NCBI GenBank assembly: GCA_944332555.1
Contig: CALVKF010000001.1
Coordinates: 1-38,451, forward strand
Direction: 5' to 3'
Source of the DNA: an uncultured Bacilli bacterium
GTDB lineage: Bacteria; Bacillota_I; Bacilli_A; RF39; UBA660
Length of the DNA: 38,451 bases
Position 1 is the first letter of the stretch. Every line of letters begins with the position of its first letter. The notes under the pieces were generated by a model, which was not told the DNA's origin, did no database searches, and saw only the letters and a list, made by a program, of their open reading frames with translations. Positions 3,147-30,555 of the stretch are shown here, piece by piece. The position numbers and the translations under genes are program-made.

Positions 3147-3842
3147 ATGAATTTAACAGATGTAATAGTTATTTTAATTATTTTACTATTTACATTTTGG
3201 GGGTTTAAAAGAGGGGTTATTAAAAGTTTAGTACAATTAGTAGGTACATGTGCTGTTTTAGTACTTGCTTGGGTATTTAAAGATACTATAGCAAATTTAT
3301 TAATGAAATATTTACCATTCTTTGATTTCGGGGGAATATTTACAGGAATTACTTCGATGAATATTGTCATTTATGAACTTATATCATTTATTGTAATTTA
3401 TATTTTACTGTATTGTATATTAAGCATAATTATAAATATTTCGGGATTAATTGAAAAAATATTAAAACTTACAGTAATTTTAGCAATACCATCCAAGATT
3501 CTTGGAGCAATTCTCGGTTTAATTGAAGGCGTAATAATGGCATTTTTAGTAGTATTTATTATGTTTCATTTGCCACAGACAGAATCAACAGTAGCTGAAT
3601 CCAAAGTAGCTATCGTGTTACTTGAAAGAACTCCGATTATTGGAGCTATGGCAGTTGATACAACTCTTGCCCTAGAAGAAATAAATGAGATATTAGAAGA
3701 AATGCGAGAAGAAGAAGATCGAGAATCAGTAAATATTCAAGTTTTACACACTCTTGTTAAATATAGCATAATATCTAAAGAAGATGCCCAAAATTTAATT
3801 GATGAAGATAAAATACACTTTTCAAGCACAATAATATTATAA
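3147..3842 (+). CDS. CvpA family membrane protein
   Basis: The 231-residue protein has four hydrophobic segments in its first 150 residues and a charged, partly acidic C-terminal tail (ILEEMREEEDRESV). The opening (DVIVILIILLFTFWGFKRGVIKSL) fits the CvpA/colicin V production family, where an aromatic-Gly-x-x-x-Gly pattern follows the first helix. Family members sit in the membrane, and a role in envelope homeostasis is suspected. It lies divergent to rnhC, with AT-rich promoter sequence between them (TATAAT near 3114), and 10 nt ahead of trxA behind a strong AAGGAGG site. The position matches cvpA (yshB) in Bacillus. Confidence 0.7.
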   Translation: MNLTDVIVILIILLFTFWGFKRGVIKSLVQLVGTCAVLVLAWVFKDTIANLLMKYLPFFDFGGIFTGITSMNIVIYELISFIVIYILLYCILSIIINISGLIEKILKLTVILAIPSKILGAILGLIEGVIMAFLVVFIMFHLPQTESTVAESKVAIVLLERTPIIGAMAVDTTLALEEINEILEEMREEEDRESVNIQVLHTLVKYSIISKEDAQNLIDEDKIHFSSTIIL

Positions 3843-9725: not shown

Positions 9726-9754
9726 TTGTGATAAACACCAAAATATGATAAAAT
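9726..9754 (+). promoter_or_regulatory. Promoter of the ToxI-like repeat RNA
   Basis: TTGTGA (9726-9731), 17 bases, then TAAAAT (9749-9754) with TG one base upstream of the -10. The expected start near 9761 lies at a small hairpin (CATTGA-GTTAA-TCAATG, 9762-9778) just ahead of the first 36-nt repeat. Confidence 0.65.
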
Positions 9755-9780
9755 AAAATTACATTGAGTTAATCAATGCG

Positions 9781-9897
9781 AAAAAAGCGGTGATCCACAG
9801 CCATAAATGAGGAATGAAAAAAGCGGTGATCCACAGCCATAAGTGAGGAATGAACAAAGCGGTGATCCACAGCCATAAATGAGGAATGAAAAAAGTT
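9781..9897 (+). ncRNA. toxI: ToxI-like antitoxin RNA: three tandem 36-nt repeats
   Basis: Three directly abutting 36-nt units start at 9781, 9817 and 9853, with a partial fourth (9889 to about 9897). GCGGTGAT recurs at 9787, 9823 and 9859, exactly 36 bases apart. Only two positions differ between units: A to G at 9843, and A to C at about 9855. Each unit ends in an A-rich run and holds a short stem, GCGGUG with CACAGC around AUC, with one mismatch. In type III toxin-antitoxin systems, ToxN cuts such a precursor at A-rich sites into single repeats that bind and inhibit it. Known ToxI units are about 34-36 nt and lie between promoter and terminator just upstream of toxN, exactly as here. Strand and role are inferred from that layout. 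Confidence 0.85.
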
Positions 9898-9925
9898 GAC
9901 CAAAATATTAATTTTGGTCTTTTAT
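9898..9925 (+). terminator. Terminator between ToxI repeats and toxN
   Basis: GACCAAAAT (9898-9906) pairs perfectly with ATTTTGGTC (9911-9919) across ATTA, followed by TTTTATTTT. In known ToxIN loci a terminator at this point lets only a fraction of transcripts read into the toxin, keeping the antitoxin RNA in excess. Confidence 0.9.
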
Positions 9926-9977
9926 TTTCTGTAAATCTGTGATACTATATTAATACAAAAGAAAAGGGGGATTAAAC

Positions 9978-10496
9978 ATGAATACTTTAAAACTTGTAAT
10001 TATTGATTCAAATTATTGTGATTATTTAAGGGGATTTGATAGTAAGGTTGTTTATAACTATGCTAAAAAGGATATTAGACCATTTATTGGTGTATTGTTT
10101 AATGTGGGAAATATGGAATATTTTGCACCATTATATAGCCCTAAACCAAAACACTTAACAATGAAAGATAATGTGGATTTTTTAAAAATTGATAATGGTA
10201 ATTTAGGGGTAATAAATTTTAATAATATGATTCCTGTAACTCCAAATAATTATATAATACCTAATTTAAAGAAAAAGAGTTTTAATATGCAGGAATTACA
10301 ATACCAATTTCTACTTTTGTCCCAATTAAATTGGTTGAATAGAAATGTTCATTTAGTAAAGAATAAAGCCCAAAATCTTTATAATAGATATAGCAATAAT
10401 AAATTGCCTACTAATATAATGAATAGATGTTGTAATTTTAAATTACTTGAACAAGCTTGTGCAAATTACAACAAAAAGCTCGTAAATACACCTTAA
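9978..10496 (+). CDS. toxN: ToxN/AbiQ family endoribonuclease toxin (type III toxin-antitoxin)
   Basis: The 172-residue product has the length and signatures of the ToxN/AbiQ family. The N-terminus is VIIDSNYCDYLRGFDSKV, then RPFIGVLF (34-41), then YFAPLYSPKPKH (48-59). That last segment aligns with the ToxN active-site segment APLTSPK: Ser54 and Lys56 are kept, and the preceding Thr is Tyr53. Next come LGVINFNNMIPV and the C-terminal NFKLLEQACANY. Family members have a MazF/Kid-like fold, cut mRNA at A-rich sites and are held by repeat RNA; several cause phage abortive infection. AAAGGGGG precedes ATG 9978. A weak extended -10 (TGATACTAT, 9940-9948) might add toxin-only transcription. The gene sits between the J-domain gene and dnaG, likely an acquired insertion. 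Confidence 0.88.
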   Translation: MNTLKLVIIDSNYCDYLRGFDSKVVYNYAKKDIRPFIGVLFNVGNMEYFAPLYSPKPKHLTMKDNVDFLKIDNGNLGVINFNNMIPVTPNNYIIPNLKKKSFNMQELQYQFLLLSQLNWLNRNVHLVKNKAQNLYNRYSNNKLPTNIMNRCCNFKLLEQACANYNKKLVNTP

Positions 10497-14858: not shown

Positions 14859-16010
14859 ATGACTACTATTTTAAAAGGTTATCAATTTAGATTATATCCG
14901 AGTGATGAACAAAAAAAGTTAATCAATCAAACTATTGGTTGTTCTAGATTTATATATAATCATTTTTTAGAAGAACGAATAAATGAATATAAAAAAACAG
15001 GTATATCAAAAACTTGTTATGAACAAATAAAAGAAATACCACAATTATATAAAGATTATCCCTGGTTAAAAGAAGTAGATAGTTGCAGTTTAAGAGCACC
15101 TGTATTTTATTTGGAAAATGCATATCATAGATTTTTTACTCAAAATAATGGTTTTCCTAAATTTAAAAATAAAGATACAGGTAATAGTTATAAAACCAAT
15201 AATATTAAAAATACTTATAAAGATAAAAACTATGAAAGTATAAAAATAGATTTAAAAAATAGAACAATAACATTACCAAAGTTAAAAAAAGTACCTATCA
15301 GAGGTTATAGAAATAAAGAAGTCTTTGTCGGCGATATAAAAAGTGCAGTTATAAGAAGAGAAGGGCTTAAGTATTATGTAAGTGTATTAGTAGAAGTTCC
15401 ACTAATACTACCTCCATTTCAACCTAGAAGTATTGTAGGATTAGATTTAGGTATAAAAGATTTAATAATAACTAGTCATAATGAAAAGATAGAAAATAAT
15501 TTAGAATGTACAAATATTAATAAACGAATCAAGGGATTGCAAAAGGCTCTTGCAAGATGTCAAAAAGGAAGTAAAAATAGAGAAAAAATAAAATTAAAAA
15601 TAAAACGAGCATATATGAAATTAAAGAATATCCGTAAGCATTTAATCCATGATATAATAAATAAAATAGTTAAAGATAATGATATTATCGTAATGGAAGA
15701 TTTAGATATTAAAGCAATGTATCAAACAAGAAGTATAGCAAAACACCTAGTGAATATCCCATTAGCTGAAATAAAACGAGTCTTGGAATACAAGTGCCTT
15801 TGGCAAAACAAAAAACTAATAACGATAAATAGATATTATCCAAGTAGCCAAATTTGTTCAGTATGTGAATATCAAAATAAAAAGTTAAAAGATTTAAGTA
15901 TAAGGAATTGGGTTTGTCCTAAATGTGGATATATACATGACCGTGATATCAATGCTAGTATTAATATAATGTTTGAAGGATTAAAAATATATATGCAAGG
16001 TTTAGTATAG
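14859..16010 (+). CDS. tnpB: TnpB, RNA-guided endonuclease of an IS605-type element
   Basis: TnpB proteins are RNA-guided DNA nucleases, ancestors of Cas12, that cut uninterrupted target sites and help the element persist. The 383-residue product looks complete. The N-terminal helix-turn-helix domain is KGYQFRLYPSDEQKKLIN. RuvC-I is GLDLGIKDLIITS (catalytic Asp), RuvC-II is IVMEDLDIKAM (Glu), a zinc ribbon has C-x2-C pairs in CSVCEYQ and CPKCGY, and RuvC-III is HDRDINASINI (Asp). All three catalytic acids are present. ACAAGGAGG precedes ATG 14859. It lies alone, without tnpA, inside a broken XRE gene. Confidence 0.93.
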   Translation: MTTILKGYQFRLYPSDEQKKLINQTIGCSRFIYNHFLEERINEYKKTGISKTCYEQIKEIPQLYKDYPWLKEVDSCSLRAPVFYLENAYHRFFTQNNGFPKFKNKDTGNSYKTNNIKNTYKDKNYESIKIDLKNRTITLPKLKKVPIRGYRNKEVFVGDIKSAVIRREGLKYYVSVLVEVPLILPPFQPRSIVGLDLGIKDLIITSHNEKIENNLECTNINKRIKGLQKALARCQKGSKNREKIKLKIKRAYMKLKNIRKHLIHDIINKIVKDNDIIVMEDLDIKAMYQTRSIAKHLVNIPLAEIKRVLEYKCLWQNKKLITINRYYPSSQICSVCEYQNKKLKDLSIRNWVCPKCGYIHDRDINASINIMFEGLKIYMQGLV

Positions 16011-28740: not shown

Positions 28741-30555
28741 TTATACCTTATTTTCTACTCTTTTTTCAAGAAAAACTCCAATTATAAATGGCATAGCAAA
28801 TATAAATGGTAATGCATATCTAAAATAAGTATTCGCAGGTCCCACTACACAAACTAATATTAATGCTAGTACAGGGGCTAAAATAACAATATTTTTATAT
28901 AATTTTTTATAAATAGCATAGATAAGTAAAGTTAATATAATCCAAACATTAAAACCAATATTAGAAATTAAACCCACAACAGGTATGTAAGGTAGTGTTA
29001 CTGCAAATCCCGATAGAATATCTCTAGAAGTATCTAAAGAGTTATAGTGATATTCAAAACCATCTTCAACTATTCTATCATCAAAATTATAATAAACATA
29101 CCATTTAGTCTTCTCTGGATAAAAGAAACCATAAACGTTATTCATTGTAGCCTCAATATAAGTCCCCGGATGTTTAATTAATCCATTAAACCAAACTTTA
29201 AAATATTCTTTTAAATCTTCATCTGTGGCATATTTATTAAATTCATTTTTAACATCATCAGCTAGCTCCGGATCATATCGCTCCGCTAAATCATCGTATC
29301 CTAATATTTTATCAATAACTGCTATTTCTTCATCGCTTAATTCATCACTATGATACTTAACATATCTAGCAGTTTGTTGAAAAGGAACCGATAATACTTC
29401 TCTAATACTACCAGGAGTTATTTTAAAATATGGTAGTATTACTTTATCAAAAACACCATAAAAACCAAAGACACAAACCATAATTAATACTATTTGCTTC
29501 CATTTGTCTTTAACTACTATTAATAAAAATGGCAGCGATAATAATAGTACATGTACACCATTATTTCTAAATAGACATACAAGTATTAAAAGTATTATAA
29601 CAAGTAAATATTTCCACCATTTATACCCTACTCCTTTGGTTTTAATAAAGTTATGTAAAAATATTAAATATAGGAAGATAAAAGCTCCAAATAAAACGTC
29701 TTTTACCCCACTCATGGCATAGAGAGGAAACATTGGTACAAGGGCATAAATAAGTAAAACTCCAATTAAATATTTAGTATTTAAATTCATCTTTTTCATG
29801 TAATATATACTAAAAGCCAGAGTTGATGCTAGAATGACAATTTGAATCATACTATAGAAAAATAAGCCTAAATTATCATTGCCAATCATTGTTCCAAGCT
29901 TCAAGCAACTACCAAGAAGAATTGTATGAGTAACAGGATGATGATTAGTCATAACTACATTTTCATCAAGTAACACAGAATAGTCAGCATATTTCGTTCT
30001 AATACCAAAAAATTGTTTTATTTGAAAACTTGGATCTGGTGATAAAATAATAGGATAAAAAGAAATAATATAAGGAAGCCAACAAATAATTATAAATATA
30101 AAACTAAATAAAAAGGGATGCTTTTTAAAAAGAGTTATAAATTTATTATCTTTCTTATTACTTTTTTCTTCATTAAAATTATTTTTATCAAGTAATTTAA
30201 ATACATAACTAATAATATTTAAAAATAAATAATAATAACCAATATACATAAGTAAAGATATTAAAAAATAACCAATATTTTTAAATATTAATAAAGTACT
30301 ACCAACTTGCATAAAACTATTACCAAATATCATAAAAAATGCTAGTATTAAACTAAGTACTTTAATTGATTTTTTCTTATGTATTATATTATCTTTCTTT
30401 AAAAATTTAAATATAAAATATAATAGTAATACACTACCAATTAAACCTAATTTTAATAATTCTCTAGTTTCTCCTAAATATAAATTATAAATATTAAAAT
30501 CAATAGCTAAAAAACTACATATTACTAAAAAATAAAACAATAATCTCTTTTTCAA
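28741..30555 (-). CDS. DUF6020-like polytopic membrane protein (possible GT-C glycosyltransferase)
   Basis: The 604-residue protein has about twelve membrane spans and a longer extracytoplasmic loop between residues 390 and 510 (for example KYHSDELSDEEIAVIDKILG). SPDPSFQIKQFFG, near residue 180, occupies the first outer loop where GT-C enzymes carry an acidic metal or substrate site. NHHPVTHTILLG follows. This pattern matches the DUF6020 family. A role in transferring lipid-linked sugars outside the membrane would fit the adjacent GT2 and GtrA genes, but is inferred. The start is TTG 30555 behind GGAGTGAT; TATAAT lies at 30582-30577. Confidence 0.7.
   Translation of the reverse strand: MKKRLLFYFLVICSFLAIDFNIYNLYLGETRELLKLGLIGSVLLLYFIFKFLKKDNIIHKKKSIKVLSLILAFFMIFGNSFMQVGSTLLIFKNIGYFLISLLMYIGYYYLFLNIISYVFKLLDKNNFNEEKSNKKDNKFITLFKKHPFLFSFIFIIICWLPYIISFYPIILSPDPSFQIKQFFGIRTKYADYSVLLDENVVMTNHHPVTHTILLGSCLKLGTMIGNDNLGLFFYSMIQIVILASTLAFSIYYMKKMNLNTKYLIGVLLIYALVPMFPLYAMSGVKDVLFGAFIFLYLIFLHNFIKTKGVGYKWWKYLLVIILLILVCLFRNNGVHVLLLSLPFLLIVVKDKWKQIVLIMVCVFGFYGVFDKVILPYFKITPGSIREVLSVPFQQTARYVKYHSDELSDEEIAVIDKILGYDDLAERYDPELADDVKNEFNKYATDEDLKEYFKVWFNGLIKHPGTYIEATMNNVYGFFYPEKTKWYVYYNFDDRIVEDGFEYHYNSLDTSRDILSGFAVTLPYIPVVGLISNIGFNVWIILTLLIYAIYKKLYKNIVILAPVLALILVCVVGPANTYFRYALPFIFAMPFIIGVFLEKRVENKV

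Follow-up and report, generated by a model that had tools for sequence, protein, structure and literature searches.

Evidence for a chromosomal ToxIN/AbiQ-family toxin–antitoxin locus with a conserved hairpin at the expected start of its antitoxin precursor

The stretch of DNA analyzed here (the window, 38,451 nt from an uncultured Bacilli bacterium) contains a short tandem array upstream of the gene of a 172-amino-acid protein, which raises the questions of whether the two constitute a type III toxin–antitoxin system, and of what role is played by a hairpin encoded in front of the array. The elements follow each other on the forward strand in the order hairpin, A-run, three 36-nt units, intrinsic terminator and toxN (9978–10496), and the succession of array, terminator and toxin gene is the one by which type III loci are defined. 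The likely promoter (9726–9754) consists of a −35 element TTGTGA (9726–9731), a 17-nt spacer and an extended −10 element TGaTAAAAT, with the TG at 9746–9747 and the hexamer at 9749–9754, and transcription is expected to start near 9761. In a consensus scan this promoter was a weak match (9/12 with the TG), and such sites were not above their chance number in the region, while the relatives have stronger promoters at the equivalent place. The terminator, which consists of GACCAAAAT-ATTA-ATTTTGGTC and a T-rich tail, was located by a terminator scan at 9898–9929 (stem 9898–9919). Two terminators were found in the region versus 0.3 in shuffled sequences, both of them readings of one stem on opposite strands, and most relatives likewise have a terminator between the array and toxN. 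No Rfam family reached its gathering score in the window, and the matches in the region were at chance level. We consider it very probable that the locus is a chromosomal type III toxin–antitoxin system of the ToxIN/AbiQ family, with a transcript that begins with a hairpin, antitoxin units folded as pseudoknots, and inactivation of the toxin in a trimeric complex. Systems of this kind are already known; the conserved hairpin at the start is apparently undescribed in the literature that was checked.

Of 386 genomes of the same family, 80 contained ToxN, as did 40 of 395 genomes of the class. The named relatives are uncultured Bacilli, no toxin relatives were found in IMG/VR, and about 80 related loci were retrieved for comparison. 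The locus is located before dnaG, and two congeners (loci L155 and L156) hold toxIN at the same place. As toxIN was absent from the position directly before dnaG in the other congener loci checked, the locus appears to have been gained or lost within the genus. Elsewhere in the window, a TnpB-like protein (OrfB_IS605 and Cas12f1-like TNB domain) is encoded a few genes downstream, at 14859–16010, and a 604-amino-acid protein with a DUF6020 match is encoded at 28741–30555 on the minus strand.

The array was detected by TRF as 3.2 copies of 36 nt (score 218, 95% matches), which is by far the strongest tandem repeat in the window. Both the three near-identical 36-nt units and the two base changes of the original prediction were confirmed by TRF and by the sequence itself. 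Unit 1 (9787–9822, with its 3′ A-run at 9817–9822) and unit 3 (9859–9894) are identical, while unit 2 (9823–9858) carries exactly two differences, A>G at 9843 in loop 2 of the fold described below and A>C at 9855 in the junction. An A-run is also present before unit 1 (9781–9786), as it is in relatives, and this run would be the first likely cut site; hence, the array has three complete units and four junctions, all of them containing A-runs. The arrays of the relatives consist mostly of 34–41-nt tandem units upstream of toxN with AAAAAG-type junctions. Exactly three units were counted in 50 of 76 arrays, which makes three the commonest number, with some of the one- or two-unit counts being undercounts due to imperfect junctions or broken contigs. 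Both kinds of unit 2 change also occur in relatives, and because 18 of 198 junctions in relatives have a nucleotide other than A at the position equivalent to 9855, the A>C change need not block cutting. These observations support the proposal of a ToxI-like precursor, in which three units would suit a trimer and the A-rich junctions are the likely cut sites. The equality of the units, on the other hand, turned out to be incidental, because the same-locus orthologues L155 and L156 have unequal units. Their hairpin and unit 1 are identical to those of the window, while the middle unit differs (GCGGTGTTGCCAGCCGGAAATGGCAATG...), and in L156 the third unit differs too, which suggests that the window array was probably homogenized through unit duplication or conversion. 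Two other loci, L058 and L068, have a tandem pair of toxN genes with separate arrays whose units differ, which provides a natural test of antitoxin cross-talk.

The product of toxN matched Pfam family PF13958 (ToxN_toxin, 2.3e-44) and PDB entry 4ato, which is ToxN of B. thuringiensis (2.1e-20), and was named AbiQ by PADLOC (1.2e-34). An AlphaFold2 model based on 30 aligned sequences (pLDDT 90.8) matched all four solved ToxN/AbiQ toxins (4ato, 2xd0, 7d8o and 4glk; E ≤ 3.3e-8), while its matches to CptN and MazF were weak. The assignment as a CptN-type toxin was rejected, as the fold match to 4rmo (E 0.17) was far below those to the ToxN/AbiQ structures. The genome contains no second ToxN. The active site retains Arg34, Ser54 and Lys56 at the positions of Lys33(Arg), Ser53 and Lys55, while the position of Thr52(Ser) is occupied by Tyr53 (TAT, codon 10134–10136). 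In the family this position is mostly Ser, including both L155 and L156, and in some members Ala. The mutation Thr52Val abolishes the toxicity of ToxN_Ec (PMC8860590), and the RNase activity of AbiQ is lost with Ser51Leu and kept with Ser51Thr (PMC5086642). Because Tyr53 is located where these substitutions inactivate, the release of three RNAs from the precursor by the window ToxN, which had been predicted, is plausible but not assured: the three units and the A-rich junctions fit it, while the cutting itself is made uncertain by this residue.

The same residue allows the explanation that the locus is decaying, with an intact array, a catalytically dead ToxN and an uncut precursor, which would be either a remnant or an antidote against incoming relatives. 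The Tyr in place of the Ser of both same-locus orthologues would be consistent with decay, and so would the L156 toxN (3312–3827, minus strand), which has an in-frame stop at codon 105 next to an intact antitoxin array, and the broken toxN copies, which are numerous in the family. However, the window toxN has an intact frame and is under constraint (dN/dS 0.30–0.39 versus the orthologues), the other three active-site residues are kept, and either Ala (six relatives) or Phe (one relative) is found at the Tyr53 site in intact frames. For these reasons decay seems rather unlikely, and we prefer the reading of a working type III system, in which the Tyr53 ToxN would still be active. The silent divergence between the window and L155 is larger in toxN than in dnaG, which suggests an exchange of alleles. 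The changes between the window and L155 ToxN proteins cluster at codons ~90–150, in the long-helix region, which in solved ToxIN structures contains the antitoxin-binding kinked helix, yet the two loci have the same antitoxin units 1 and 3.

The 5′ hairpin that had been proposed at 9762–9778 was confirmed by the sequence and by its folding energy. It is 17 nt long, CATTGA(GTTAA)TCAATG, it is located at or 1 nt past the expected transcript start, and as RNA it has an energy of −5.2 kcal/mol (z −3.4), with 2 of 200 shuffles as good. A clear promoter was recognized in 62 relatives, and in 48 of them (77%) a stem of 6 bp or more began 3–8 nt past the −10 hexamer, as compared to 11% of shuffled leaders. 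Other promoters in the fetched loci, which served as the second control, had such a hairpin in 6 of 29 cases, and at least five of those six were toxIN leaders missed by the filter. The distance from the −10 hexamer to the stem had its peak and its median at 6 nt in the relatives and is 7 nt in the window, so that the stem falls where transcription is expected to begin. In short leaders (~20–45 nt) the hairpin adjoins the first A-run, as it does in the window, while in long leaders (~60–90 nt) the start hairpin, often CATAAGTGATTATG, is followed by further stems. In the long-leader group (L042, L038, L055, L062, L113 and others) the CATAAGTGATTATG hairpin is followed by an TGCATATAATA element and then by a third stem before the array; TGCATATAATA could pair with upstream sequence, and the alternative pairings, which look possible, might act as a switch. 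No such hairpin was found in the plasmid ToxIN leaders of Lactococcus, Staphylococcus, Listeria, E. coli, Enterobacter, Pantoea and Haemophilus, while a weaker hairpin occurs in the ToxIN leaders of several other Bacilli chromosomes. Because most of the plasmid ToxIN loci examined are without it, the basic mechanism does not depend on the hairpin. In this respect it was correctly regarded as an addition to the basic model, while its occurrence in 48 of 62 relatives gives it a greater importance than had been supposed.

The inverted repeat could also act as DNA rather than RNA, by serving as the operator of a repressor that controls the toxIN promoter, as it is located at the transcript start, a possible site of repressor binding, and the CATAAGTGATTATG sequence is well conserved in the long-leader group. 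Outside this group, however, the sequence varies widely between loci while the pairing is kept, the loops are only 3–5 nt long, and 40 of 452 pairs are G·U, which would break a DNA palindrome. Moreover, the transcription of type III toxins and antitoxins is constitutive in the loci summarized by a review. The varying sequence, the tight loops and the G·U pairs speak for a hairpin acting at the RNA level, and an operator is improbable. A hairpin or stem–loop at the 5′ end is unmentioned in the type III review and in the ToxIN paper, while Blower 2012 (gks231) may mention one.

We infer that this RNA hairpin is a 5′ stabilizer of the antitoxin precursor. The B. subtilis RppH acts only on 5′ ends with two or more unpaired nucleotides (PMC3997798), and 5′-terminal stems are established stabilizers of mRNAs (PMC3997798 and references there); hence, a stem at the start would shield the precursor until the A-run is cut. 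In the host genome there are genes for two RNase J proteins and a single RNase Y. The earlier suggestion that the hairpin might protect the precursor gains support from its family-wide conservation at the expected transcript start. As the hairpin is kept in dozens of loci, it is a simple and directly testable candidate.

An H-type pseudoknot (GGU/GCC and UCCaCA/UGaGGA) is the fold supported across 144 distinct units from relatives. In the alignment of these units stem 1 was 94% paired versus 82% in shuffles, and stem 2 81% versus 66%; none of 500 shuffles was as good, and slid controls gave 41–50%. When 30 diverse, hand-picked units were compared, 85% of cells were paired versus 71.7%, there were 38 versus 10 cells changed on both sides, and the covariation was 0.477 versus 0.198. 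About 36 arrays (38 entries, two being duplicated) contain units that differ from each other by compensatory double changes, a pattern that relatedness between loci cannot easily mimic. In unit 1 of the window stem 1 is formed by 9789–9791 and 9800–9802, and stem 2 by 9794–9799 and 9808–9813; the fact that stem 1 has just three pairs, one of them G·U, and that stem 2 contains an A·A mismatch counts against the model. Even a prediction that does not allow pseudoknots chose stem 2 as the preferred fold of the unit, while the folding energy of the whole precursor calculated without pseudoknots (z 0.4) was uninformative. The alternative that the unit is a plain hairpin, GCGGUG with CACAGC followed by an unpaired GAGG, as had been originally predicted, is barely credible and was rejected, because although five of the six pairs are possible in the window unit, the stem has a G·A mismatch, the fold prediction prefers another structure, a key pair is impossible in nearly all relatives, covariation is absent, pairing in relatives is at chance level (59% of cells versus 60% in shuffles, and 57% on the 144 units), and GAGG is in fact located in the 3′ strand of stem 2 of the covariation-supported pseudoknot. 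In some arrays the units differ in both stems of the pseudoknot yet all of them pair, which suggests that the toxins recognize the structure and its flanks rather than the stem sequence. Many relatives have one bulged base between the stems, and the pair next to it occurs in all four Watson-Crick forms (C-G, G-C, A-U and U-A). On our reading of the alignment, this may correspond to the base triplet, with its interdigitated guanine, of the solved ToxI structures (PMC5086642). The 144 units also offer an extensive natural data set on covariation in the ToxI pseudoknot.

In the mechanism that we propose, transcription from a single promoter would give a short RNA, which starts with the hairpin, contains the three 36-nt antitoxin units and ends at the intrinsic terminator, while read-through of the terminator would give the toxN mRNA. 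Each unit would fold as an H-type pseudoknot between A-rich single strands, and ToxN would cut within the A-runs, including the one behind the 5′ hairpin, to release three 36-nt RNAs, which would join three toxin molecules in an inactive ring. The start hairpin would most likely block attack on the 5′ end of the precursor by RppH or RNase J, and the first ToxN cut would remove it. It is possible, and we propose it tentatively, that the hairpin is dedicated to setting the lifetime of the precursor and that the toxin removes it with its own first cut, so that free toxin would both mature and uncap its antitoxin. If true, such toxin-driven uncapping would be a feedback undescribed for type III systems, as far as the literature was checked.

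The locus can be compared with several known systems. CptIN of Eubacterium rectale has the same type III organization and a pseudoknot antitoxin, while the match to its toxin is weak (4rmo, E 0.17) and CptIN forms heterotetramers (PMC5086642). The ToxIN systems of Pectobacterium atrosepticum and E. coli are alike in the toxin fold (2xd0, 7d8o), the H-type pseudoknot and the order of parts, while they differ from the window in having 4.6–5.5 repeats and the cut sites AA/AU and GAA/AU, and the E. coli plasmid leaders examined are without a 5′ hairpin. ToxIN of B. thuringiensis (pAW63) shares with the window the toxin family, the fold (4ato is the best PDB match) and a terminator before toxN. Its antitoxin of 34 nt x 2.9 is on the same three-unit scale, with A-rich cleavage at A/AAAA (PMC5086642). 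The two toxins are ~29% identical in the fold match, with Tyr53 being the window's residue, and the window leader has a 5′ hairpin, the B. thuringiensis leader itself being outside the leader comparison. AbiQ/antiQ of L. lactis is the system after which PADLOC named the window toxin, and antiQ has 35 nt x 2.8. The leader of the Lactococcus plasmid homologue is without a 5′ hairpin, unlike that of the window, while its units, which begin with GCGGTGAATC, closely resemble the units of the window.
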